Positions 10,403 through 35,535 of a stretch of DNA of 50,134 nucleotides are shown one piece after another (the stretch's first letter is position 1; the number at the start of each line of letters is the position of its first letter). The stretch spans positions 1 through 50,134 of the forward strand of contig CALXUV010000029.1 of the NCBI GenBank assembly GCA_944391815.1, read 5' to 3'. Source of the DNA: an uncultured Clostridia bacterium (GTDB lineage Bacteria; Bacillota; Clostridia; Oscillospirales; CAG-272). Position numbers and translations under genes: made by a program. A model generated the notes under the pieces. It searched no databases. It was not told the origin of the DNA and saw only the letters and a list, made by a program, of their open reading frames with translations.

Positions 10403-13400
10403 ATGAAACTGAGAACAAGAATGATAGCATTTCTTTTGCTTCTCTGTACGCTTGTGACGATGCTGCCGATAACGGCGCTTTCGGCATTTGCTGACGGAGA
10501 ACCCGAAAAGGAGGACGCTATGGAAAAGATCGAAGCAGACGAGGCGCTCAAGACCTATAAGCAGGGCGAGACGCTTTCGTTCGACGACGACGGCTACATA
10601 GGTGTACCGTATAAGGTTACGGTATACTTTGACAGCGCAAAGGGTGCGGCAAAGCCCGGTTATATGACAACCGACAAGGCTACCCCCGTTATCCTTTACG
10701 TCGTAAACGCGGATTTCGAGCGCATCGGAACGGATCCCGACGCCTCCATCATAAAGTCGATGGTGGAAAGAGGATACGCCGTTGCGGTGCTTGATTACCT
10801 GAATAATGCAAAGGTCACGGGCGAGGCGCTCGACTACTCCGCTCAGCTCCTTCGCGGAAAGCTCGGCGAGGGCGCGTTCTTTGCCGACAAGACCGTGTTC
10901 CCCGCAGGCACCTACCGTGATAACCTTCTCGTTCCCGCGGGCTACGACGTTCTTATGAACGAGGTATTCTTTGAGCTTGATAAGCACGGAACCGACGGCA
11001 CCCTTGAAAAGATCGTGAACGTCTGGAACAACGACTTCCGTCTTTACAAGAAGGACACCGTTATCAAATGGGTACACGAGGACGGCACCCGTAAGGCGAC
11101 TCAGAAGGATTTTGTCGGCGGCGATCCCGTATGGTACAGCGATGCCGCGGGCAAGACCGTCGATGCCGAAAACGGTACTTACATTAAAGTAAAGCACACG
11201 AAGGCAGAGGTGATCACCGACTGCGTACTGGCAGACGGCAGACCTATAGACCTTAATCTTTACGCGCACGTTATCTATCCGACCAACCCTAAGGAAGCCG
11301 TTCCGATAATGACGATGTTCTCGTCAGCCGGCTACCTTATGGAGGGAAGCAACAACGTGGCGCGTCCCCATATGCAGCATTTCCTCTTTAACGGATACGC
11401 CGGACTTCTTTACGATTACGCGTGGATCCCGATGGGAAGAAACGACCACTACGGATACTTCGACGGAAGCAGCGGAGAGGGCAAGAGCGTAACGGGCGAC
11501 AACCAGTCCTACGCCACCTACACCTTCAACGCCGCTCAGTCCACTACCGCCGCAAACCGTTTCGTACGCTACCTTGCTCTTACCCAGCCCGAAACCTACA
11601 AGTTTAGGCTTGATAAGCTCGGCGTTTTCGGTATCTCAAAGGCGGCTTGGATGACGCATCTCGGCGCACCCATTCTCCGTGAGGACCTTATCGTAAAAGA
11701 GGACGGACTGACCGACAGCGAGGTCGCGGAAGCGGTAAATGACAAGATAAACGGCTTTTATCAGCAGCTCTGGCTTCCCGGTCACCACGGAGAGACCAGA
11801 TACGATAACGGCATTACCGAGTCCTACACCAAGGACGGATTTACTATCGACGGCGGTGAGATTCAGCCCTACGCCGTATTCGACGGAAACGAAATAAGCT
11901 CGGGCGCTGAGGCGGTCTATTCAAGCTGCGGCGCGGTCACCGACTACATCGACAAGGGTTATTCTCCTCTCTTTATAACCCTCAACCTCCAGGATACCTA
12001 CTCCACTGAGTACGGTAAGCAGAACGAGATGGCAAACCTCTGCCGCGTTCACGACGTACCTTCTCTCTGGCTTGAGGCTGACATCGCCCACACCTTCGCT
12101 GACGGTGTTGACTACAACCACGGCGTTGACACCTATAAGGCGTTCATGGACTTCTTTGATTACTACCTGAAGGACACCCCCGCATCCGTTCTTTATACCG
12201 CTCCGAGAGGCGGTTACGCGGGCATGAGCACCGTTCAGCCGATAACCGTCAAGTTCATCGGTCAGGTAAGCGCTTCCGAGATCGAGAAGATCTCCGTGAC
12301 CGACAAGCTCGGAAACAAGGCGAGCGGAACGTGGGCTTCCTCCTACGGAAACACCGAATGGACGTTTAACCCCGACGGCTTTGACGGACTTACCGAGTAC
12401 GTTCTTACAGTACCCGCAGAGCTTGAGGGCGAGAACGGCAAGGCGATAGGCAAGAGCTTCACCGTCTCCTTCTGGACTCAGCCCGAGGTAGTAGCCGAGG
12501 GCGCGATAGACGTAAAGGTCTACGATTATCAGAGCAGCGACGTGACCTTCACCGTTCCCACTCTTACCGACGGTATGAACGAATATAAGGTGCGCGTAAA
12601 GGCGTCCTACGGCGTAAACAAGCTCACCCTTCTCGAAGGTGACGGCAAGGTCGTTTCAAGCGTAAACGTAAGCGGCGAGGGCTGGTACGAGCTTGACGTC
12701 TTTGACGCCGTAAAGGCGGCGGACGCTGGCAGCGAGCTTACCTTGAAGCTTAAGACCGAGTACAGCGCGGGCAGCGGTGACGTCTACACCGAGACCTTTG
12801 ACGAGGATAAGGGCGCGACCTCTCCCGATACCAAGTATGCCGAATATGATTACGCCGAGATCGACGGTGCAAAGGCAATGAAGGTCGTTATGAAGACCAA
12901 CGAAGGTTATTATAAGGGCGACCACTACTACTATTCTTACAGAAATATTCTGACGGCAAGCAAGGCGATAAACGGAGGCGCTCCTCTCACCAAGGAGGAT
13001 CTCGGAAGAACCTTCCTTATTACTTTAAGAGTCTACGATACCGTACAGCGTCAGATGCGCATACAGGGTAAGAGCGTAACGAGCAAGAACGATAAGATGC
13101 TCGATTATGACAGACTTATCTACAATTTCACCACCAAGGCAGGCGGCTGGGTAGAGATAACCGTACCGTATACCGTATACGAGACCGAGTACGGCACTAT
13201 CGGTAACCTCGCTCAGGCACTTTACGTCTACGCAACCCCCACGGGCGACACCGAAATGCCCCTCTATATCGACAGCCTCACCGTGACCGAGGTATATAAC
13301 GACCTTGCTCTTGAAAAGGTACAGCTCGTAGCGTACGCAAACGGAGAGGGCGCGTATAAGGAAAAGACCGACGGCAAGGCGTTCACCGTAGGCGAAAACG

Positions 13401-16400
13401 GCTATGATACATGGAAGGCGGCAATTTCCGCAGCAAAGGACGGCGACACCGTTAAGCTTAACGCAAATTACGTATTCACAAGCAGCGACTTTGCTCCCAT
13501 TACAGTAAATAACGTCACTATCGACTTAAACGGCTATAAGCTCGTTTGCGACAGCGAAAAATCCCCCATAGCTCTTGCTTCCGCAGGAACGGAAGCGGCT
13601 GCCGTTACCGTAAAGAACGGTAGAGTATTCATAAGCGACGCTCCGTTCGTTTCCTATATAGGCGACACCGACAAGGCATATAACGTAGCGTTTACCGATC
13701 TCTATATCGGCGTTTATAACGTAGCGCAGACCGCCGAGGTGATCTCAGCCTCCGCGGTAACGGGAAATGCGAGCGTAAGCGCTTCGTTTGAGCTTACCGA
13801 CTGCGTAATAGACGTAAACAGAGGTAAGATGGCAAAATGCCAAGCGACCGTTCTTCCCAAGGGCGGCAGCGGTCTTGATATCTCCTATACCTTTATTGGC
13901 GGCAAGCTTATCCTTGACAGCAGACTTGACCTCACCTTCTCCCAGAGCGCGCTTACCGTTAAGGCAAACGGAGAGGGCGTGTTCACTAAGCTCTATACCG
14001 CTGACGGAATGCTCGGCGTTCCCGCGTTCTCTCTTACGAAGGACGGAGAGTTCTGCGAGTTCGTGAAGGTAGGAACCGAAAACGGCTACGCGGTATACGA
14101 GGCACAGAAGGCGGCAGTCACCACCGGGTACGGCATCATTCCCGAGCAGTACGCAAACGCCTCCGAGTATCCCGTCGTTATCTTCTCCGACAACTGCTTC
14201 ATAGCGGCTAAGAAGACCTGGCCCGAAACACTTGAGGCGGTGATCGCGTTCACCGATACGGCGGCGGGCGCTACCGTTCAGGTTCTTTTAAGAGACGATC
14301 TTGACAACTCAGGCACTCCTACCAGAATGTACAAGATCAACGGCACTCTTGTCTTCGACCTTAACGGCAAGACCTTGAAGAGCAATTCCGCCACCCTCTT
14401 TGAGTTCGGAGCGGACGCAAGCTACACGGGCGTGTTTACCTCTTACACCACCAAGCTTGTTGTCAAGAACGGTACTCTTGTAAACGATTACGGCAAGCTC
14501 GCGGCGTTCGAGAACAAGACCTCAAGCGATAAGCACTACGAGGTAGTATTTGAAAATGTCAGAATGACCGTTTCCTCGGCTAACGCGAGAAGCGAGGCGA
14601 TAGTCACCTATAACGATTCAAATAATACGGGCGTAGTTTATCTCGACTTTACCTTCACCGACTGCACCTTCGATTTCACCGACGCGCAGAAGAAGTTTAC
14701 CGTTATCAAGGCAAACGCCGCTGACAGCGTGTGCAGCATCAAGGTGAACGGCGGTAAGATGATCTCCGACACCGCCGACAGCTATGCCTTCTTCTCGACC
14801 GACGAGCTTGACAGCGTAGTCTACGGCAAGGGAAGTGACGGAAAGTACCTTACGCTCACCTTGAACGAGGGCGAAAGCGCGGGAAGCGACAGCTTCAAGC
14901 TCGATGACGGTATGTTCTACGGCTTCGGCGACGGAAAGACCGAGGGCGGCAAGACTACCTATTCCTTCGTAAATAATGAGAACAGCACTCCTTACGGAAT
15001 GATCCCCGACGGAAACGACGACCGCTTCGTAATATTCGCGGGCGGCAAATATATAACCTCGGGCGACGACTGGAACTACATTACGAGAAAGGTCCTCGAT
15101 ACCTTCAATAAGAAGGTAGGGGACGATTATCCTTACTTTGGCGATACGGTATACCTTATCATGCGCTCCGATTACAGAGGAAGCGCGGGAAGCACCAGAG
15201 TAGCGGCTTATAACGGAACTCTCGTTTTCGACCTTATGGGCAACACCTTCACCAGAAGCGGCACCCTGTTTGAAAGCGAAGCGGACACCCAGCACGGAAG
15301 CGGAACAACGGTTTATAACGGTGTCGTTGACGGCTACGTCAATATAATGAATAACCTTAACGGCGGCAAGCCCTTCGATACGAATATCACCGTAAAGAAC
15401 GGAAGCATCGTTTCCGAGGGCGCGGGCAATAACAAGTACGGACATCTTATAGCGGTCGGTGGCAACCATAAGGCTGACAAGAAGATGACCTTCACGTTTG
15501 AGGATATTGACTTCGGCGTAAAGAACGACCCCTCCACTTTATTTGCGGTAGGCTGGGGAACAACTGACGGCGCGAAGATGGATATGGACATAGTTCTTAA
15601 TAACTGTGATTTCACTTTCCCGACCGATACCGCGACAGGCTCAGGCGTATTCGTGCGCAACGGCACACCTCAGCTTGATTTTGATATCTACTTCAACGGC
15701 GGTACGATAAACGGTGATATGACCAACCTCAAGCTCTGCAATAACAGCGTAGTTCCCGAGGTGTTCTTCGGTAAGTATGCGGGCAAGTACACCACCCTGA
15801 CCGTTCCCACGGGTAGTACCTATCCCGTTATCGGCGGAACGAACGAGGACGGCAAGCTTGTCACCTTCGCAGGTACGGGTACCGTCAGTGGAGCCAATAC
15901 CACCTATTCTCTTGTTGAAAACGACAGGATCACCAAGTACGGAGTGATCACAAGCAACCGCACATCAGGCTTCGTCGCGTTCTGCAACGGCGTGATGATA
16001 AACGAAGCGAACGACTGGAACGCGATAACTCAGAGAGTTCTTGAGTATATCAATAAATCCTCCGGAAGCGGCGACAGCATCACCTATCCGAATTTTGGCA
16101 AGACCGTAACGATCCTTATGCTCTCCGATTACAGCGGTAAGGGCGGAAACGCAAGAATAAGCGCTATCAACGGAACTCTCGTAGTAGACCTCGGCGGTCA
16201 CACCTTCACAAAGACGGGAACTATGTTCGAGTGCGCTATACAGGATAGTCAGAGCGGCGTAGTCGGATACAACACCGTCAGAAACTCCTACAACGGCGGC
16301 AAGGACTTTGATACCAACGTCTACGTTCTTAACGGTACTATCGCAAGCACCGCAAACAACGCTTCCATTATAGCTACCGAAAACAAGCTCACGTTATCCG

Positions 16401-19237
16401 AGGAGGATCCGCTTATAAAGACCATGAACTTCACCTTCGATAACGTTGAGTTCGACGTAGTGAAGGAAGCTACGCGCTTCATGTTCTTAAGCTGGGCTGT
16501 ATACGAAAACTCCGAGCTTATCTTCAATCTTAATTATAACGACTGTACCTTCGATTATTCTCTCGGTACTACCTCCGCTTCAAAGTTCATCAACAACGGA
16601 AGCGGTGAGCAGGGCGGAAGAATAAAGACCAACGTTTCCATCAGCGGCGGTACAGTGAAGGGCGATATGACCAATATCACCATGAACGCTACCACCTACA
16701 ACACCTTTACCTATTACAGAGGCAAGGACGGCGAATACCCGATCTTCAAGCTTACCGCAGGCAATCCTCCCGCTAAGCTTAAGGCGATAATCGACGAAAA
16801 GGGTAATTACAGAACCAACCAGAATTATACGGCTGTTTCCACAGTTGACGGCGTGACCACCTACAAGCTCGGTAAGATGTGCAAGTACGGTGTGATCGAG
16901 CCTGAGTACAACTACGAAAAGGGCGTTCCGTTCGTGATATTTATGGACGGCAAGGCGGTAGCGGGCGCGTCTAACTGGGCAAACACCACCGCAGCTCTTA
17001 AGACCGTTCTTGACGCAAACCCGGGAGCTACCGTTACAGTTTACGTTCAGTACGATACGGTAAGCACAAACTCCCCCGTCCAGATGGCGATGCTTAACGG
17101 TACGGTCAATATCGACTTGAACGGTTATACTCTTACCGGAAACGCTCATACCCTCTTTGAGTGCGGAACGGGTAATTATAACGGCTTCTTCGATACTAAG
17201 ATAAACGTATTTAACGGCACCGTAATTATGGGCAAGGGACGTATCGCGGTATTCGAGAGCAAGAGCGCAAACGATAAGCACTTTGCTTTCACCTTCGAGA
17301 ACGTGACATTCGGTCTTGCGGCGGACTTCGCGACCACAAGCGGAATGCGTCAGGAGATGTTCTTCCATTGGGACGCAAGCGGCAAGGGTAAGGTAACGGC
17401 GGATATAGACTTTATAAGCTGTACCTTCGACTTCAGCGGCGCGACTGCCGAAAAGCCGGTAACCTTTATCAATATCGACTCTCCAAACCTCGCTGTAAAT
17501 ACCACAGTAACGGGCGGCTCGATAATTGCCGATACAGCGGCAGCGGTAAACTTCTACGTAGAGTCCGCTACAAGTCCCCTGACCATGGTAAAGGACGGAA
17601 ACGGAGTGTACACTACCTCCTCTATGGCGGACGGAACAGTTCTTGGCGGTACTTACGCGACCGCTGACGAAAACCTTCCCTACGGAAAGCCCGTGGGAGG
17701 AATTTCCACCTTAACTCCGTGCAACCACACATACGATTCCGCGTGCGACGGTGAATGTAACCTCTGCGGAAGCGAAAGAACCCCCGCGCCTCACGTTCCC
17801 TCAGAAAGCTGGACGGTCGAGGCGGATAAGCACTATAAGACCTGTACGGTCGATGGCTGCGGAGCAAAGCTCAGCATGGATAAGCACAGCGGCGGAAGCG
17901 CTACCTGCACCGATAAAGCGGTATGTCAGTTCTGCGGCGGCGAGTACGGTGAGACCGATCCCGATAACCACGCAAAAGCCGACAGATTTACTTCCGAGGA
18001 CGGTCAGCATTGGTACGCTTGCTTAAACGGCTGCGGCGAGAAGCTCGAGCTTGACGGTTGCTCCTCCGAAGCTTGGATAAGCAACGGCGAAAAGCATCAT
18101 AAGGAATGTGACGTTTGCGACGCGATGTTTAATGAAGACACCTGCTCCGGCGGTGAGGCAGACTGTATGAATAAAGCGGTCTGCGATACCTGTGAAAACG
18201 AGTACGGCGAAAAGGATGCCGATACGCACGTAGGAAGCGCGGACGGTAAGTGGTATCAGGAAAACGATAAGCACTACAAGAAGTGCGAGTGCGGAGCAAA
18301 GCTTAACGAAGATATCTGCTCCGGCGGTAAGGCGGACTGTATGAATAAAGCGGTCTGTGACATCTGTGAAAACGAGTACGGCGTAAAGGACGCCGATACG
18401 CACGTAGGAAACTCCGGTGACGAATGGGTTTCTTCCGAAGGAAAGCACCATCAAATCTGTGACTGCGGAGTAAAGATCAACGAGGGCGAATGCTCCGGCG
18501 GTACTGCCGACTGCATGAACAAGGCGGTCTGCTCCGTATGCGGAAGCGAGTACGGCGAGACAGCACCCGATAACCACGCTCCCTCCTTCAAGATGAAGCA
18601 TGACGGTACCCACCATTGGTACGAATGTATCAACTGCGGCGAGGTTCTCGGTAAAACGGAGCACGTCGGCAAGGCTACCTGCACAAGCGCGGCGATCTGC
18701 TACGATTGCGGAGCAACCTTCGGTGAGCCTGACGCAAACGCCCATAAGGCTTCGGCTGAGTGGATGGCAGACGAAAACGGACATTGGCACGAATGTGTAA
18801 ACGGCTGCGGCACTAAGGTAGGCTACGAGGCTCATAAGGGCGGTAAGGCTACCTGCACCGAAAAGGCGGTATGTACGGTCTGCGGCAGAGAATACGGCGC
18901 TCTTGCGGAGCATAGCTATTCCGACAGCTGGACGAGGTACGGAAGCAAGCACTGGCATGAATGCGAGTGCGGAGCGAAGAAGGACGAGGCAGTCCACAGC
19001 TACGGCGAGTGGACGGTGACCAAGGAAGCGACGGAGACCGAGGACGGCGTTCGTGAGAGCGTCTGCGAGTGCGGTGATAAGCGCATACAGGTCATTCCCG
19101 TTATCTCAAGGCCCGTAAAGAGTAAAAACGCAAGCCCTGTAGCAGTTGCCTCCATCGCACTTGGAGCAACTGCGGCAGCGGGTGCGGCGGCAGCAGGCGT
19201 AACCCTGCTCGCAGTCAAGAAGAAGCGTAAGAAATAA
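10403..19237 (+). CDS. Giant modular secreted/cell-surface protein (2,944 residues) with alpha/beta-hydrolase-like N-terminus
   Basis: Not a recognised named protein. A signal peptide (residues 1-30, cleavage after AFA) is followed by an alpha/beta-hydrolase-like region to about 600, with GISKA (Ser412, a G-x-S-x-A nucleophile elbow) and a late DIAHTF (His563). An Ig-like domain ending in TVSFWT spans about 600-690, and two more beta domains run to about 970. Five beta-rich modules of about 280-315 residues follow (to about 2435), each with an NGTLVFDLNG-type strand and a VKNGT strand, suggesting beta-helix solenoids. Six Cys/His-rich repeats run to about 2890. The C-terminus is Ala-rich and hydrophobic, ending KKKRKK, as in membrane-anchored surface proteins; no LPXTG is seen. 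Lys is coded mostly by AAG, whereas neighbouring housekeeping genes favour AAA, so the gene may be acquired. A perfect terminator follows. Substrate unknown; carbohydrate-ester or adhesin roles are possible. Confidence 0.85.
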   Translation: MKLRTRMIAFLLLLCTLVTMLPITALSAFADGEPEKEDAMEKIEADEALKTYKQGETLSFDDDGYIGVPYKVTVYFDSAKGAAKPGYMTTDKATPVILYVVNADFERIGTDPDASIIKSMVERGYAVAVLDYLNNAKVTGEALDYSAQLLRGKLGEGAFFADKTVFPAGTYRDNLLVPAGYDVLMNEVFFELDKHGTDGTLEKIVNVWNNDFRLYKKDTVIKWVHEDGTRKATQKDFVGGDPVWYSDAAGKTVDAENGTYIKVKHTKAEVITDCVLADGRPIDLNLYAHVIYPTNPKEAVPIMTMFSSAGYLMEGSNNVARPHMQHFLFNGYAGLLYDYAWIPMGRNDHYGYFDGSSGEGKSVTGDNQSYATYTFNAAQSTTAANRFVRYLALTQPETYKFRLDKLGVFGISKAAWMTHLGAPILREDLIVKEDGLTDSEVAEAVNDKINGFYQQLWLPGHHGETRYDNGITESYTKDGFTIDGGEIQPYAVFDGNEISSGAEAVYSSCGAVTDYIDKGYSPLFITLNLQDTYSTEYGKQNEMANLCRVHDVPSLWLEADIAHTFADGVDYNHGVDTYKAFMDFFDYYLKDTPASVLYTAPRGGYAGMSTVQPITVKFIGQVSASEIEKISVTDKLGNKASGTWASSYGNTEWTFNPDGFDGLTEYVLTVPAELEGENGKAIGKSFTVSFWTQPEVVAEGAIDVKVYDYQSSDVTFTVPTLTDGMNEYKVRVKASYGVNKLTLLEGDGKVVSSVNVSGEGWYELDVFDAVKAADAGSELTLKLKTEYSAGSGDVYTETFDEDKGATSPDTKYAEYDYAEIDGAKAMKVVMKTNEGYYKGDHYYYSYRNILTASKAINGGAPLTKEDLGRTFLITLRVYDTVQRQMRIQGKSVTSKNDKMLDYDRLIYNFTTKAGGWVEITVPYTVYETEYGTIGNLAQALYVYATPTGDTEMPLYIDSLTVTEVYNDLALEKVQLVAYANGEGAYKEKTDGKAFTVGENGYDTWKAAISAAKDGDTVKLNANYVFTSSDFAPITVNNVTIDLNGYKLVCDSEKSPIALASAGTEAAAVTVKNGRVFISDAPFVSYIGDTDKAYNVAFTDLYIGVYNVAQTAEVISASAVTGNASVSASFELTDCVIDVNRGKMAKCQATVLPKGGSGLDISYTFIGGKLILDSRLDLTFSQSALTVKANGEGVFTKLYTADGMLGVPAFSLTKDGEFCEFVKVGTENGYAVYEAQKAAVTTGYGIIPEQYANASEYPVVIFSDNCFIAAKKTWPETLEAVIAFTDTAAGATVQVLLRDDLDNSGTPTRMYKINGTLVFDLNGKTLKSNSATLFEFGADASYTGVFTSYTTKLVVKNGTLVNDYGKLAAFENKTSSDKHYEVVFENVRMTVSSANARSEAIVTYNDSNNTGVVYLDFTFTDCTFDFTDAQKKFTVIKANAADSVCSIKVNGGKMISDTADSYAFFSTDELDSVVYGKGSDGKYLTLTLNEGESAGSDSFKLDDGMFYGFGDGKTEGGKTTYSFVNNENSTPYGMIPDGNDDRFVIFAGGKYITSGDDWNYITRKVLDTFNKKVGDDYPYFGDTVYLIMRSDYRGSAGSTRVAAYNGTLVFDLMGNTFTRSGTLFESEADTQHGSGTTVYNGVVDGYVNIMNNLNGGKPFDTNITVKNGSIVSEGAGNNKYGHLIAVGGNHKADKKMTFTFEDIDFGVKNDPSTLFAVGWGTTDGAKMDMDIVLNNCDFTFPTDTATGSGVFVRNGTPQLDFDIYFNGGTINGDMTNLKLCNNSVVPEVFFGKYAGKYTTLTVPTGSTYPVIGGTNEDGKLVTFAGTGTVSGANTTYSLVENDRITKYGVITSNRTSGFVAFCNGVMINEANDWNAITQRVLEYINKSSGSGDSITYPNFGKTVTILMLSDYSGKGGNARISAINGTLVVDLGGHTFTKTGTMFECAIQDSQSGVVGYNTVRNSYNGGKDFDTNVYVLNGTIASTANNASIIATENKLTLSEEDPLIKTMNFTFDNVEFDVVKEATRFMFLSWAVYENSELIFNLNYNDCTFDYSLGTTSASKFINNGSGEQGGRIKTNVSISGGTVKGDMTNITMNATTYNTFTYYRGKDGEYPIFKLTAGNPPAKLKAIIDEKGNYRTNQNYTAVSTVDGVTTYKLGKMCKYGVIEPEYNYEKGVPFVIFMDGKAVAGASNWANTTAALKTVLDANPGATVTVYVQYDTVSTNSPVQMAMLNGTVNIDLNGYTLTGNAHTLFECGTGNYNGFFDTKINVFNGTVIMGKGRIAVFESKSANDKHFAFTFENVTFGLAADFATTSGMRQEMFFHWDASGKGKVTADIDFISCTFDFSGATAEKPVTFINIDSPNLAVNTTVTGGSIIADTAAAVNFYVESATSPLTMVKDGNGVYTTSSMADGTVLGGTYATADENLPYGKPVGGISTLTPCNHTYDSACDGECNLCGSERTPAPHVPSESWTVEADKHYKTCTVDGCGAKLSMDKHSGGSATCTDKAVCQFCGGEYGETDPDNHAKADRFTSEDGQHWYACLNGCGEKLELDGCSSEAWISNGEKHHKECDVCDAMFNEDTCSGGEADCMNKAVCDTCENEYGEKDADTHVGSADGKWYQENDKHYKKCECGAKLNEDICSGGKADCMNKAVCDICENEYGVKDADTHVGNSGDEWVSSEGKHHQICDCGVKINEGECSGGTADCMNKAVCSVCGSEYGETAPDNHAPSFKMKHDGTHHWYECINCGEVLGKTEHVGKATCTSAAICYDCGATFGEPDANAHKASAEWMADENGHWHECVNGCGTKVGYEAHKGGKATCTEKAVCTVCGREYGALAEHSYSDSWTRYGSKHWHECECGAKKDEAVHSYGEWTVTKEATETEDGVRESVCECGDKRIQVIPVISRPVKSKNASPVAVASIALGATAAAGAAAAGVTLLAVKKKRKK
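14129..17717 (+). repeat. Four homologous long modules within the giant protein
   Basis: Protein-level repeats begin at Tyr1243, Tyr1531, Tyr1846 and Tyr2162 (nt 14129, 14993, 15938, 16886). Each starts YG-[VIM]-I and has, in order, a xFVxFxxGK-like strand, an SDY/DD-containing strand, NGTLV.DL.G, TLFE, VKNGT, a TFENV-like strand and a C/CTFDF strand. A fifth, more diverged module precedes them from about residue 1010. They resemble recently expanded paralogous domains and are not identical at DNA level. Confidence 0.75.
17718..19090 (+). repeat. Six Cys/His-rich repeats near the C-terminus of the giant protein
   Basis: Repeats of about 55-70 residues, each with the core C-x-x-K/A-A-V/I-C-x-x-C-x-x-E/T-Y/F-G followed by a spacer with W...H....C..CG. 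Six cores are visible (for example CTDKAVCQFCGGEYG and CMNKAVCDTCENEYG). Paired Cys with nearby His suggest metal binding or disulfides. Neighbouring copies 2-4 are the most alike, consistent with recent tandem duplication. Confidence 0.75.
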
Positions 19238-31782: not shown

Positions 31783-31873
31783 TCACCTCTTCAGCGGTTT
31801 TGCAAACAAAAGAAACGGATTACCGTAATTTCTGAAATTTTACAGACCATCTTTCTTTGTGAAAGGAACGGAT

Positions 31874-32884
31874 ATGAAAATAATAGTTGACGTAATGAGC
31901 GGTGACAAAGCACCGGGTGAAATCATAAAAGGCGCATGCTTTGCCGCGAAAACCGGAAAAACCGATATCATAATGGTCGGAAATTCCGAGGTAATAAAAA
32001 AATACGCATCGGAAAATATGCTTGATATATCTTTGGCAAACATAGAGATTGCAGACGCAAGGGACGTGATTACCATGGAAGATGATCCGATGTCGGTAAA
32101 AGATAAAAAAGAGTCGTCAATGGCAACGGCTCTCAGACTTTTAAGAGAAGGAAAAGGAGACGCGGTAATAAGTGCCGGAAACACCGGCGCACTTTATACG
32201 GGTGCCGTACTTTATGTCGGAAGAATAAAAGGCGTTCAGAAAGCTGCCATTGCAACAGTTCTGCCATTTCCCTCTCCCCTTCTGCTGCTCGACTGCGGCG
32301 CAAACGTAAGTCTTACTCCGGAAAGCCTTTTGCAGTTTGCGGTGATGGGCTCGCTTTATATGAAAAATGTGTTCGGTACGGAGCTTCCGAGAGTCGGGCT
32401 TCTGAACAACGGAACAGAGTCGCATAAGGGTACAGAACTGCAACAGCAGGCTTACGGAATACTTTCTCAGAATAAGGAGATCAGTTTTATCGGCAACGTC
32501 GAAAGCAAATCGCTTTCCGAAAACGTCTGCGACGTACTGGTAACCGACGGTTTCACCGGCAATATTCTCCTTAAATCCATAGAGGGACTCGGAGCATTCT
32601 TCATGTCCCGCATGAAAGAAATGTTCACCAAAAACTGGCTTACATACGCTTCCGCCGCAATAGTAAAGCCCCATCTGAAAAAGCTGAAAAAAGATTTCGA
32701 CCCGTCCGAACACGGAGGCTCTCCGCTTCTCGGTATAAAAAAACCGGTTTTCAAGGCGCACGGAAGCTCAGATGCAAAAGCGATAGCAAATGCCGTTCGG
32801 GTCGCCGGACTCTACTGTCAGAGCGGTATTGATGAAAAAATAATAACCGCTTTGCAGTCCTCCGGCACAAACGCAAATTCCTGA
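31874..32884 (+). CDS. plsX: Phosphate acyltransferase PlsX
   Basis: Converts acyl-ACP to acyl-phosphate for PlsY, the first step of phosphatidic acid synthesis. The 336 residues match the family: IIVDVMSGDKAPGEIIKGA, SMATALRLLREGKGDAVISA, GNTGALYTGAVLYVG, LLDCGANVSLTPE, GTESHKGTELQQQAY, DVLVTDGFTGNILLKS and VFKAHGSSDAKAI. The ATG at 31874 has AAAGGA 7 nt upstream; the frame also opens at a GTG 15 bp earlier, which overlaps that site. It ends 11 bp before the RNase III-like gene. In most Firmicutes acpP follows plsX; here it does not. Confidence 0.96.
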   Translation: MKIIVDVMSGDKAPGEIIKGACFAAKTGKTDIIMVGNSEVIKKYASENMLDISLANIEIADARDVITMEDDPMSVKDKKESSMATALRLLREGKGDAVISAGNTGALYTGAVLYVGRIKGVQKAAIATVLPFPSPLLLLDCGANVSLTPESLLQFAVMGSLYMKNVFGTELPRVGLLNNGTESHKGTELQQQAYGILSQNKEISFIGNVESKSLSENVCDVLVTDGFTGNILLKSIEGLGAFFMSRMKEMFTKNWLTYASAAIVKPHLKKLKKDFDPSEHGGSPLLGIKKPVFKAHGSSDAKAIANAVRVAGLYCQSGIDEKIITALQSSGTNANS

Positions 32885-32895
32885 GAGGTAATTTA

Positions 32896-34617
32896 ATGCA
32901 AAACAGTTTGAACTTATTTGACATACAGAAAAAATTAGGTCACGTATTCAGAAACACAGAACTTCTGGAAAAAGCTTTTGAAGATAAAACCTCTGAAAAC
33001 CGCCTGCGTCTTTCTTTTCTCGGAAAAAATCTTTTAACAGCGGTTATAAGTGACTATATTTATACACACACTCCACCCGGAACTTCAATAAGTCCGGAAA
33101 AAGATCTTCTCTATTTTCTTTCAGCCATCGAAACGGGTAAATTTTTACGTTCCAAGGATCTGATAAAATACATTCCGCAGGCATCGGAAAGCAGACCTGA
33201 AAATGAGGTAAGCACTGATGTTTTTTATGCCGTCGTTGCTGCAATTTACCTTGACAGCGGCATGACTGCACTTAAAAGTTTCACTTTGCCTTTGATCCGG
33301 AGCTGCGACTCTGAATCCCATTACGAGAGAGGTGCAGAAGGAAAGGTTCTGACTGCCGATATGCCGACTGAAGAAACAGCGCAGGACGGAGTGCATATTC
33401 AAAACGCACGGCGCGGAAGAAGGAGCGGAGCCACTTCTCTCGGCATAACCCGCGCACTTACCGTAAATAAAAACGAACCGGTTAAAAATTCGGAAAAGAA
33501 CACTCAGGTAAAGGCAAAAACCGATGCACTTGACAAGTCTGAATCTGACGGCACAACAAAAACCGTAAAGTCCTCAGGTCTTTCCGGGCTTTTCTCCCTC
33601 AGAGGCAGAAAAAAGAAACAACTGCCCGAAACATCGGAGGAGTCGGATTCTGAGGAAAAAATAACCCCGGAACCCACGGTTAAGCGAAGTTTTATAAGGG
33701 ATGCCCTTACTCCGGTACGGCTTTCGGATGAACTCAGAAACGCCGGTTACAGAAAGCCGAAATCTTCTGCGTCAGTTAAAACCGATGTACCGGAGACCGA
33801 CAGAAAAGTCGGCAACATTCCTTCTGATACAGAAATATTTAAAGAAAATAGCGAATCCGCTCAGCGGAAAAACAGAAAATCAGACCTCAGTCCAAAGTCC
33901 GGTGAAACGGAAAACAGCGGCGTAGAAATAAAATCGGGTTTACGTCAGTCAAAAAAGAACGCTGTCGGATTTAAGTCCGGATCTACCGAGGAAATTACCG
34001 CAAACACCTTAAAACAGAAGTATCCGAAAACGGGAGACGGAAACTTTAAATTTTCGTCAAATGAAAAACAAATCCCCGACCTTGAAACGAAAACCTTTTC
34101 CGCCGAAAAGGAATCCGGTAACGAAAACTTCAAATCAATGCTTCAGGAAGCAGTTCAGAAAATCATCCGCACGTCAAACATGATACTGAAATATTCAACG
34201 GTATCAGATAAAAAAGGCGGTTATAACTGCAAAATCACAGCTGAGGACAGGGAGATAGCTTCAGCTTCTGCTTCCGGACGCAAAGCGGCGGAACAACTCG
34301 CCGCAAAAAATGCGTACAATTTACTGCAAAAAAAAGACGGTCCGGAATTTCTTTACCTGCATCAGCTGGCAAAAAGCGGAACTCTGAGTTCAGAAGGTCC
34401 GGACGACTTCGTTTCAAAGGTAAACAGATATTTTCAGAAAAACTATAAAAATTCCAAACTTCCTACCTACATGAAAAAAGACAGCGACTCAAAGAAAACT
34501 TTTACAGTCGCAGTTATCTTTGACGGAAAAGAGCTTGCGGAGGCAAGTGCGCCGTCTCTTAAACAGGCAAAACAGCTTGCTGCCGAAAAAGTCTGCAAGC
34601 AGTTCGGAATTCAGTAA
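32896..34617 (+). CDS. RNase III-like protein with degenerate active site and two dsRNA-binding domains
   Basis: Residues 5-135 align well to the RNase III domain of the neighbouring rnc product: FRNTELLEKAF against FKNKKLLTEAL, LSFLGKNLL against LEFLGDSVL, and VFYAVVAAIYLDSG against AFEALLGAIYLDSG. Catalytic positions are lost: the Glu of LEF is Ser40, the Asp of FLGD is Lys44, and the second-cluster Glu is Tyr111; only Asp108 keeps an acid. A polar, disordered stretch follows (about 140-405). Two dsRBD-like domains end the protein (about 411-480 with GRKAAEQLAAKNAY, and 503-571 with LKQAKQLAAEKVC). It probably binds double-stranded RNA without cutting it, perhaps with RNase III (inference). 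AGAGGT precedes the ATG; it lies 11 bp after plsX and 210 bp before rnc. Confidence 0.85.
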   Translation: MQNSLNLFDIQKKLGHVFRNTELLEKAFEDKTSENRLRLSFLGKNLLTAVISDYIYTHTPPGTSISPEKDLLYFLSAIETGKFLRSKDLIKYIPQASESRPENEVSTDVFYAVVAAIYLDSGMTALKSFTLPLIRSCDSESHYERGAEGKVLTADMPTEETAQDGVHIQNARRGRRSGATSLGITRALTVNKNEPVKNSEKNTQVKAKTDALDKSESDGTTKTVKSSGLSGLFSLRGRKKKQLPETSEESDSEEKITPEPTVKRSFIRDALTPVRLSDELRNAGYRKPKSSASVKTDVPETDRKVGNIPSDTEIFKENSESAQRKNRKSDLSPKSGETENSGVEIKSGLRQSKKNAVGFKSGSTEEITANTLKQKYPKTGDGNFKFSSNEKQIPDLETKTFSAEKESGNENFKSMLQEAVQKIIRTSNMILKYSTVSDKKGGYNCKITAEDREIASASASGRKAAEQLAAKNAYNLLQKKDGPEFLYLHQLAKSGTLSSEGPDDFVSKVNRYFQKNYKNSKLPTYMKKDSDSKKTFTVAVIFDGKELAEASAPSLKQAKQLAAEKVCKQFGIQ

Positions 34618-34827: not shown

Positions 34828-35535
34828 ATGCAAACCAAACTGAGTACGGAAAAACTTGAAAAGACAGTCGGATATACTTTCAAAAACAAAAAGTTGCTTA
34901 CCGAGGCATTGACACATTCGTCCTATTCCAATGAGCTTTTGCAAAGAAATATAGATTCACGGTCAAACGAACGTCTGGAATTTCTCGGAGATTCCGTGCT
35001 TGAAATAGTTTCAACCACCTATCTTTTTGAGAATTTTCCTTCGATTCCCGAGGGTGAACTGACAAAACTCCGTTCGGAAGTGATATGCACCGAGGCGCTG
35101 TCGGGATATGCCGCAGAAATATCTCTCGGAGATTTTCTTTTACTCGGAAAAGGTGAAAAAAAGGGCGGCGGTCAGAATAAACCCTCAACTCTTGAAAATG
35201 CCTTCGAGGCACTTCTCGGAGCTATTTATCTTGACAGCGGACACTCTCTTGAAGCAGTTGAAAAATTTGCTCTGCCATTTATTTCAAAAAAAGCACTGGC
35301 GGCTTCAATCGATTCAAAGGACTACAAGTCTGAGCTTCAGCAGATCGTACAGCAAACCCCGGGAGAAAAGCTTTCTTATGAGGTAACTGACAGAACAGGT
35401 CCCGATAACGATCCGACTTTCACCGTAACGGCAATGCTCAACAGCAACGTTATCGGGAGAGGCGTAGGACACTCAAAACGGAAAGCCGAGCAGGAAGCCG
35501 CAAAAGACGCTCTTAAATTTTTCAGAAGAGACTGA
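34828..35535 (+). CDS. rnc: Ribonuclease III
   Basis: Cuts double-stranded RNA, including rRNA precursors. The 235 residues have an intact catalytic signature NERLEFLGDSVLE and a second cluster ENAFEALLGAIYLDSG (Asn at the position often Asp, catalytic Glu present). The C-terminal dsRBD (about 160-232) includes DYKSELQQIVQQ and GHSKRKAEQEAAKDAL. GGAG precedes the ATG. It lies upstream of the radical SAM and smc genes, as is common in Clostridia. Confidence 0.97.
   Translation: MQTKLSTEKLEKTVGYTFKNKKLLTEALTHSSYSNELLQRNIDSRSNERLEFLGDSVLEIVSTTYLFENFPSIPEGELTKLRSEVICTEALSGYAAEISLGDFLLLGKGEKKGGGQNKPSTLENAFEALLGAIYLDSGHSLEAVEKFALPFISKKALAASIDSKDYKSELQQIVQQTPGEKLSYEVTDRTGPDNDPTFTVTAMLNSNVIGRGVGHSKRKAEQEAAKDALKFFRRD

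Follow-up and report, generated by a model that had tools for sequence, protein, structure and literature searches.

A predicted catalytically dead RNase III paralogue with tandem dsRNA-binding domains, conserved beside rnc in one genus of Clostridia

The window analyzed here, a 50,134-nucleotide stretch of contig CALXUV010000029.1 from an uncultured Clostridia bacterium (assembly GCA_944391815.1), carries a gene directly upstream of rnc for what, judging from its sequence and that of its orthologues, is a real and conserved pseudoenzyme: a degenerate RNase III nuclease domain joined through a long linker to two dsRNA-binding domains (dsRBDs). This protein is referred to in the following as pseudo-RNase III. 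In all seven genomes of the genus that were examined, rnc is immediately preceded on the same strand by an intact orthologue, and within the genomes searched such a dead RNase III locked to rnc was found only in this genus. Its most likely role would be to pair with RNase III or to compete with it. The features of the locus are as follows:

31859..32884, + strand: plsX (Pfam FA_synthesis), the upstream neighbor in the window and in four other genomes of the genus
32883..32888, + strand: GAGAGG, a likely ribosome-binding site that overlaps the stop codon of plsX (direct sequence reading)
32896..34617, + strand: pseudo-RNase III gene, 573 aa (open reading frame, Pfam and NCBIfam matches, orthologues)
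32914..33309, + strand: degenerate RNase III domain, residues 7–138 (PF14622, PDB profile match, AlphaFold/Foldseek)
33013..33027, + strand: S40-F41-L42-G43-K44 where E-F-L-G-D is expected; metal ligands lost at 40 and 44, F41 being the dimer "ball"
33217..33228, + strand: D108-V-F-Y111 in place of D/N-x-x-E, with the E110 equivalent lost (alignment)
33325..34122, + strand: long linker, residues about 144–409, predicted to be disordered (pLDDT mostly <50)
33691..33723, + strand: conserved linker motif FIRDALTPVRL, residues 266–276 (FIRD in six of seven orthologues)
34126..34335, + strand: dsRBD1, residues 411–480 (Pfam, both AlphaFold models, dsRBD profiles)
34405..34614, + strand: dsRBD2, residues 504–573 (Pfam, dsRBD profiles, one model; first strand missing in the other)
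34828..35535, + strand: rnc, canonical RNase III, 235 aa, the likely partner (TIGR02191, 251 bits, over the cut-off)

The reading frame was found exactly where the original prediction had placed it, encoding 573 aa and preceded by a likely ribosome-binding site. It starts 11 bp after the end of plsX and ends 210 bp before rnc. An autoregulatory hairpin between the two RNase III genes was considered and rejected: the 210-nt gap folds no better than shuffled sequence (z 0.50, with 136 of 200 shuffles folding at least as well). Elsewhere in the window, positions 10403–19237 hold an open reading frame of 2944 aa that gave no Pfam match at E ≤ 1e-5.

By sequence comparison, the homology of pseudo-RNase III to RNase III is far beyond chance. 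The protein matched Pfam PF14622 with 41.8 bits (E 1.5e-10), above the cut-off of 35, and PF00636 with 26.4 bits, just below the cut-off of 27. The match to the NCBIfam RNaseIII model TIGR02191 (E 4.8e-27, 94.9 bits) fell under the equivalog cut-off of 166.25; of what defines that family, the predicted RNase III fold and a dsRBD are present, while the curated score and the acidic residues are not. A family profile search of the PDB returned T. maritima RNase III (E 8.3e-27), and pairwise alignment with the neighboring rnc product gave 29% identity over 156 columns (E 2e-11).

When pseudo-RNase III was modeled alone by AlphaFold, from a 28-row alignment that included 26 canonical nuclease domains, helices were predicted confidently in residues 7–58 and 107–138, with lower confidence at about 60–105. 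Foldseek ranked C. jejuni RNase III first for this model (probability 1.00, target TM 0.78), a match that is not fully independent because the alignment included canonical RNase III relatives. In a second model, pseudo-RNase III was tethered to rnc; there, the canonical rows apparently fell on the rnc part, and the pseudo-RNase III part relied mainly on its own sequence and that of G004. The same nuclease helices appeared, together with two complete dsRBDs. An earlier alignment for the structure prediction (A2) had been discarded, as the rnc dsRBDs seemed divided between both dsRBDs of pseudo-RNase III. The claim that the N-terminal ≈135 residues match the neighboring RNase III along their length is borne out as RNase III homology over residues 7–138 by Pfam, NCBIfam, the PDB profile and Foldseek, and the structure prediction, set beforehand as a test, recovered the RNase III fold.

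The metal-ligand positions were read in a joint alignment with the A. aeolicus RNase III (E110Q chain segment), in which S40, F41, K44, D108 and Y111 of pseudo-RNase III align to E40, F41, D44, D107 and E110. With the orthologues in the order G000, G004, G002, G006, G005, G001, G003, the residues are S, A, A, I, V, V, S at E40; K, R, K, R, E, M, K at D44; D, E, E, Q, E, E, E at D107; and Y, Y, Y, L, L, L, H at E110. E40, D44 and E110 are thus retained in none of the seven, and position 107 is Asp in one, Glu in five and Gln in one. The six complete rnc proteins next door all have E40, D44 and E110, with Asn in five and Asp in one at position 107. The window rnc (34828–35535) is one of those with Asn at this metal-ligand position, at about codon 124. 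Asn is also found there in the RNase III of relatives without a pseudo-RNase III gene (L043, L044) and, as aligned, in the first of Drosha's two nuclease domains, so that Asn107 alone is no argument against an active rnc.

It had been claimed that the metal-binding acids were replaced by Ser40, Lys44 and Tyr111 and that only Asp108 was kept. The numbering is right, and the loss of the E40, D44 and E110 equivalents extends to all seven orthologues. Residue 108 is indeed Asp, but its retention carries little weight, because the neighboring rnc has Asn there and only one orthologue has Asp. The profile search that had been proposed for orthologues with the same lost residues yielded seven, none with all four acids. 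Since position 107 is acidic in six of the seven (Asp in one, Glu in five), one possible metal ligand might be left for a rebuilt active site with a different hydrolytic or sequence-specific RNA activity. We consider this very unlikely: the replacements vary at 40 (S/A/I/V), 44 (K/R/E/M) and 110 (Y/L/H), and therefore no new shared active site is visible.

Sequence change was also followed over the whole domain, against a reference of 105 canonical RNase III domains in which 23 columns are conserved in at least 85%. Six of these columns are kept in all seven orthologues, namely F18, A27, F52, G54, A132 and D136 in rnc numbering, where F52 and G54 correspond to F41 and G43 of A. aeolicus. At rnc positions 82, 86, 109 and 115, none of the orthologues has the canonical residue, so the loss extends past the active site.

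The C-terminal region matched Pfam dsrm in two stretches (E 4.6e-18). dsRBD1 is complete in both AlphaFold models, and dsRBD2 is complete in the tethered model and lacks its first strand in the model of the protein alone. In both models, residues from about 144 to 409 are predicted to be disordered, with pLDDT mostly <50. Both the long disordered linker and the two dsRBDs had been anticipated, and both were found, the disorder as a prediction from pLDDT. With a profile of either pseudo-RNase III dsRBD, the other scored an average of 33.8 bits, against 26.5–27.7 bits for the rnc dsRBD, and an rnc dsRBD profile gave 17–18 bits for both; these cross-scores weakly suggest a duplication within pseudo-RNase III. 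The linker contains FIRD in six of seven orthologues, followed in most rows by ALxPVxL. The copy of FIRDALTPVRL in the linker was the only one found in the genome, and the motif is a possible docking site for some partner.

The seven orthologues, one per species, are 396–573 aa long and 27–61% identical to the window protein. The distance to rnc ranges from 2 bp (G002) to 210 bp (the window), and the frame as called in G001 overlaps rnc; in G003 the contig ends within rnc, whose fragment still lies directly downstream. The upstream neighbor is plsX in five genomes (G000, G003, G004, G005, G006) and trmFO in two (G001, G002). In the latter two (loci L007 and L004, respectively), plsX is absent between trmFO and the pseudo-RNase III gene, whereas it is there in the other five. 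The plsX–rnc context originally described thus applies downstream in all seven genomes and upstream in only five, and the lasting link is with rnc rather than plsX, because rnc is the neighbor in 7/7, plsX in 5/7 and trmFO in 2/7.

At E ≤ 1e-30, a seven-row profile (A1) matched seven of 395 family genomes and three of 394 genomes in a draw from the order, all of the genus, and no orthologue was found at this threshold in the 388 other family genomes or the 391 other genomes of the order draw; at E ≤ 1e-28, two of 341 genomes in a class draw matched, one being the window and the other a canonical RNase III (G794), and these counts come from partly overlapping draws and from thresholds that more diverged orthologues would escape. 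A looser protein search (E ≤ 0.001) matched 228 of 295 family genomes, with a best value of 7.9e-10 outside the genus, which is the level expected for ordinary RNase III. Among 22 loci from relatives outside the genus, plsX and rnc were both present in 15, with ≤145 bp between match ends, and therefore no room for a pseudo-RNase III gene. In four of the remaining loci, trmFO lies beside rnc, and in three neither neighbor was found on the stretch. A mobile or phage origin was rejected, as a phage collection gave no match to pseudo-RNase III and none of 73 pattern matches on viral contigs was confirmed. A Subdoligranulum plasmid gave one weak match (29.6%) over residues 9–134.

Besides rnc and the pseudo-RNase III gene, each of the seven genomes of the genus has another gene with an RNase III domain, its open frame of 133–165 aa being about the size of Mini-III. 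Pseudo-RNase III is therefore apparently a third RNase III protein, predicted to be dead, and replaces neither of the others, since both are kept in 7/7; replacement of Mini-III, considered separately, was rejected on the same ground. Out of 148 family genomes chosen for completeness, 37 had more than one RNase III match, including five of this genus; some of the extra matches outside the genus are weak and Mini-III-sized. Twenty stretches were taken from the list of extra matches, with one frame each. Fifteen of the frames are second RNase IIIs in which E40, D44 and E110 are all present as judged by motif, with Asp at position 107 in 14 and Asn in one; a profile picked out two dsRBDs in three of these. 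No other RNase III frame, and hence no canonical rnc, was found in the stretches around these 15. Like pseudo-RNase III, the second RNase IIIs (such as L160, L165 and L176) are extra genes with one or two dsRBDs, but they differ in keeping the three acids in 15/15. The combination of a dead nuclease and doubled dsRBDs had been put forward as new; doubled dsRBDs are not unique, given the three intact second RNase IIIs, whereas what is distinctive is a dead nuclease domain combined with linkage to rnc. Of the other five frames, three encode short proteins resembling Mini-III, one is truncated and one is a fragment of rnc.

The second RNase IIIs (L160:5334-6503, L165:5265-6581, L176:311-1519 and 12 more frames in L161–L174) are scattered among other genera, and in six stretches inspected by eye their neighbors look like ordinary chromosomal genes. 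The proteins of genus g38 at L175:4473-5033, L177:4395-4913 and L178:3906-4472 are short, single-domain and RNase III-like, without a dsRBD, as in Mini-III; they have Ser or Ala at the E40 position and keep D44 and E110.

Selection was estimated with a simple Nei–Gojobori script. For the pair G000–G004, dN/dS was 0.17 over the whole gene, with values of 0.275 for the nuclease domain, 0.14 for the linker and 0.089 for dsRBD2, compared with 0.045 for rnc; dS was near saturation, dsRBD1 was not computable because its dS was saturated, and several comparisons gave infinite dS. Pseudo-RNase III is thus under purifying selection, as measured by an overall dN/dS of about 0.17 in one pair with dS near saturation. 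The dsRBD region is the best conserved part, with 76% identity to G004 over residues 404–572. A decaying, functionless duplicate of rnc might be expected from the fast-evolving nuclease domain and the very variable linker, but we regard it as highly unlikely: the frame is intact in all seven genomes, one per species, at 27–61% identity, and no finite dN/dS value obtained exceeds 0.34.

The orthologues formed one clade in free trees, with support of 100/99 in two trees and 98/89 in another. The last included the 20 second frames, except that L171 and L179 were left out beforehand and L167, L169 and L176 were lost in trimming. In that tree, the orthologues were not placed with the catalytically intact second RNase IIIs and grouped (89/85) with three short RNase III-like proteins from a different genus, which is possibly due to long-branch attraction. 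A tree joining the orthologues to their own rnc was not rejected (AU p 0.285; 0.307 with L043 and L044 included), and tandem duplication of the genus's own rnc in place is therefore a compatible, but unproven, origin.

The dimer of A. aeolicus RNase III is described, in the relevant part of PMC3991619, as having a "ball", Phe41, and a "socket" made up of Val52, Val56, Leu67, Ser68 and Lys71. The ball is invariant in the seven orthologues. The socket is partly lost: positions 52 and 56 resemble the neighboring rnc in five of seven each (Ser at 52, where rnc has Ser/Thr; Tyr at 56, where rnc has Phe/Tyr), but Leu67 is found in only four, and the basic residue at 71, present in all six rnc proteins, is found in one. 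The glycine after E64 is likewise retained in one. This pattern fits a domain that would still present the ball to a partner with an altered socket of its own. The tethered model of pseudo-RNase III and rnc had a pTM of 0.38 with the interface not resolved, and its Foldseek list gave no clear pseudo-dimer; the model was not counted as evidence for a heterodimer.

From sequence and linkage we infer that pseudo-RNase III pairs with RNase III. In the reading that we put forward, plausible although tentative, a duplicated RNase III would have lost its metal ligands while keeping the fold and part of the dimer face, and gained a long tether and two dsRBDs. It would presumably be co-expressed with RNase III from a shared operon, the two proteins pairing by way of their nuclease domains. 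Such a heterodimer, with one working active site, would nick or cut a single strand of selected duplexes, and the extra dsRBDs, if they bind dsRNA as predicted, would choose or hold the substrate. This reading is supported by the loss of catalytic positions in 7/7 alongside six conserved columns that are kept, by the ball, kept in 7/7, by socket positions 52 and 56, and by the linkage to rnc, kept in 7/7 even where trmFO replaces plsX, although linkage between neighboring genes need not mean that their products make contact. It is weakened by the partial loss of the socket, by the changes at rnc positions 82, 86, 109 and 115, by the lower model confidence at residues 60–105 and by a nuclease domain that evolves faster than dsRBD2 (0.275 against 0.089), as would be expected if the protein acted mainly through its dsRBDs. 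The larger proposition is that these bacteria have evolved an RNase III heterodimer: an active subunit would be joined by a dead one, specialized for this role, with tandem dsRBDs and encoded next to it, and a double-strand cutter would thereby become a directed single-strand cutter. We regard this as possible but rather unlikely.

The conservation of the dsRBD region, including the dN/dS of 0.09 in dsRBD2, would suit a self-dimerizing or monomeric dsRNA-binding protein that masks duplex RNA, antagonizing RNase III or protecting the RNA without ever pairing with the enzyme, and partial socket loss would hinder canonical pairing. A pure dsRBD protein would, however, need neither the predicted folded nuclease domain nor a ball invariant in 7/7, and we think such a masking protein possible but rather unlikely.

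Pairing with RNase III is not the only use to which a dead RNase III fold might be put. The mL44 protein of the large mitoribosomal subunit has an RNase III fold with one dsRBD and is not known to be catalytic, and pseudo-RNase III shares with it the fold and a dsRBD. Mitoribosomal chains were among the Foldseek matches of the protein alone (3j7y_c, E 1.0e-02, rank 38), as would suit a protein that binds ribosomal RNA in a structural or assembly role. This match is weaker than that to RNase III, and Pfam PF22935, the mL44 endonuclease domain, matches rnc and is not among the matches of pseudo-RNase III at E up to 10. Among the genomes searched, the protein was also found only in one genus, whereas ribosome parts tend to be older, and the genomes that have it carry both RNase III and a gene of Mini-III size. 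We consider an mL44-like role improbable.

Compared with bacterial class I RNase III (rnc), of which the gene next door is a canonical member, pseudo-RNase III has the same order of nuclease fold and dsRBD, but differs in the loss of three of the four catalytic acids in 7/7, in its score below the TIGR02191 cut-off, in the second dsRBD and in a linker that runs to about 265 residues in the protein of the window. The protein YmdB is unrelated to RNase III. It is named as a known bacterial regulator of RNase III in the section concerned of PMC9508840. The bacterial forms named in the pertinent part of PMC8708148 are RNase III and Mini-III, and Synechococcus PCC 7002 is listed there with three RNase III enzymes. 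Mini-III (MrnC) likewise accompanies RNase III in the same cell as an additional protein with an RNase III domain, but is described in that part as without a dsRBD, whereas pseudo-RNase III has two.

The closest analogue appears to be the kinetoplastid KREPB6-8, for which no orthology is claimed. As described in the sections of PMC9508840 on these proteins, KREPB6, KREPB7 and KREPB8 are the non-catalytic RNase III partners of catalytic KREN3, KREN2 and KREN1. Like pseudo-RNase III, they have an RNase III domain without catalytic residues and an active RNase III partner, or a candidate for one, in the same organism. They differ, in the same sections, in having a zinc finger and RAM helix, no dsRBD and a role in mitochondrial mRNA editing; no zinc finger family was among the Pfam matches of pseudo-RNase III up to E 10. 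Those sections also cite work on artificial E. coli RNase III heterodimers with one functional subunit, and state in 2022 that multiple catalytic/non-catalytic RNase III heterodimers seemed so far unique to kinetoplastid editing complexes (PMC9508840). In a full-text literature search with results judged by title and abstract, and with subscription journals mostly outside its coverage, no paper was recognizable as dealing with a dead bacterial RNase III paralogue with dsRBDs.

Few RNA-processing enzymes have been studied as thoroughly as RNase III, and a dead twin conserved next to rnc would offer a natural test of whether bacteria control it by pseudoenzyme pairing, as already proposed for trypanosome mitochondria. 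The pair is compact and testable in vitro with purified proteins. A different elaboration of an RNase III domain was seen in genus g3, where the frames at L173:2428-4371 and L174:914-2974 encode proteins of 647 and 686 aa in which the domain is followed by a long, repetitive tail rich in Ala, Glu and Pro.
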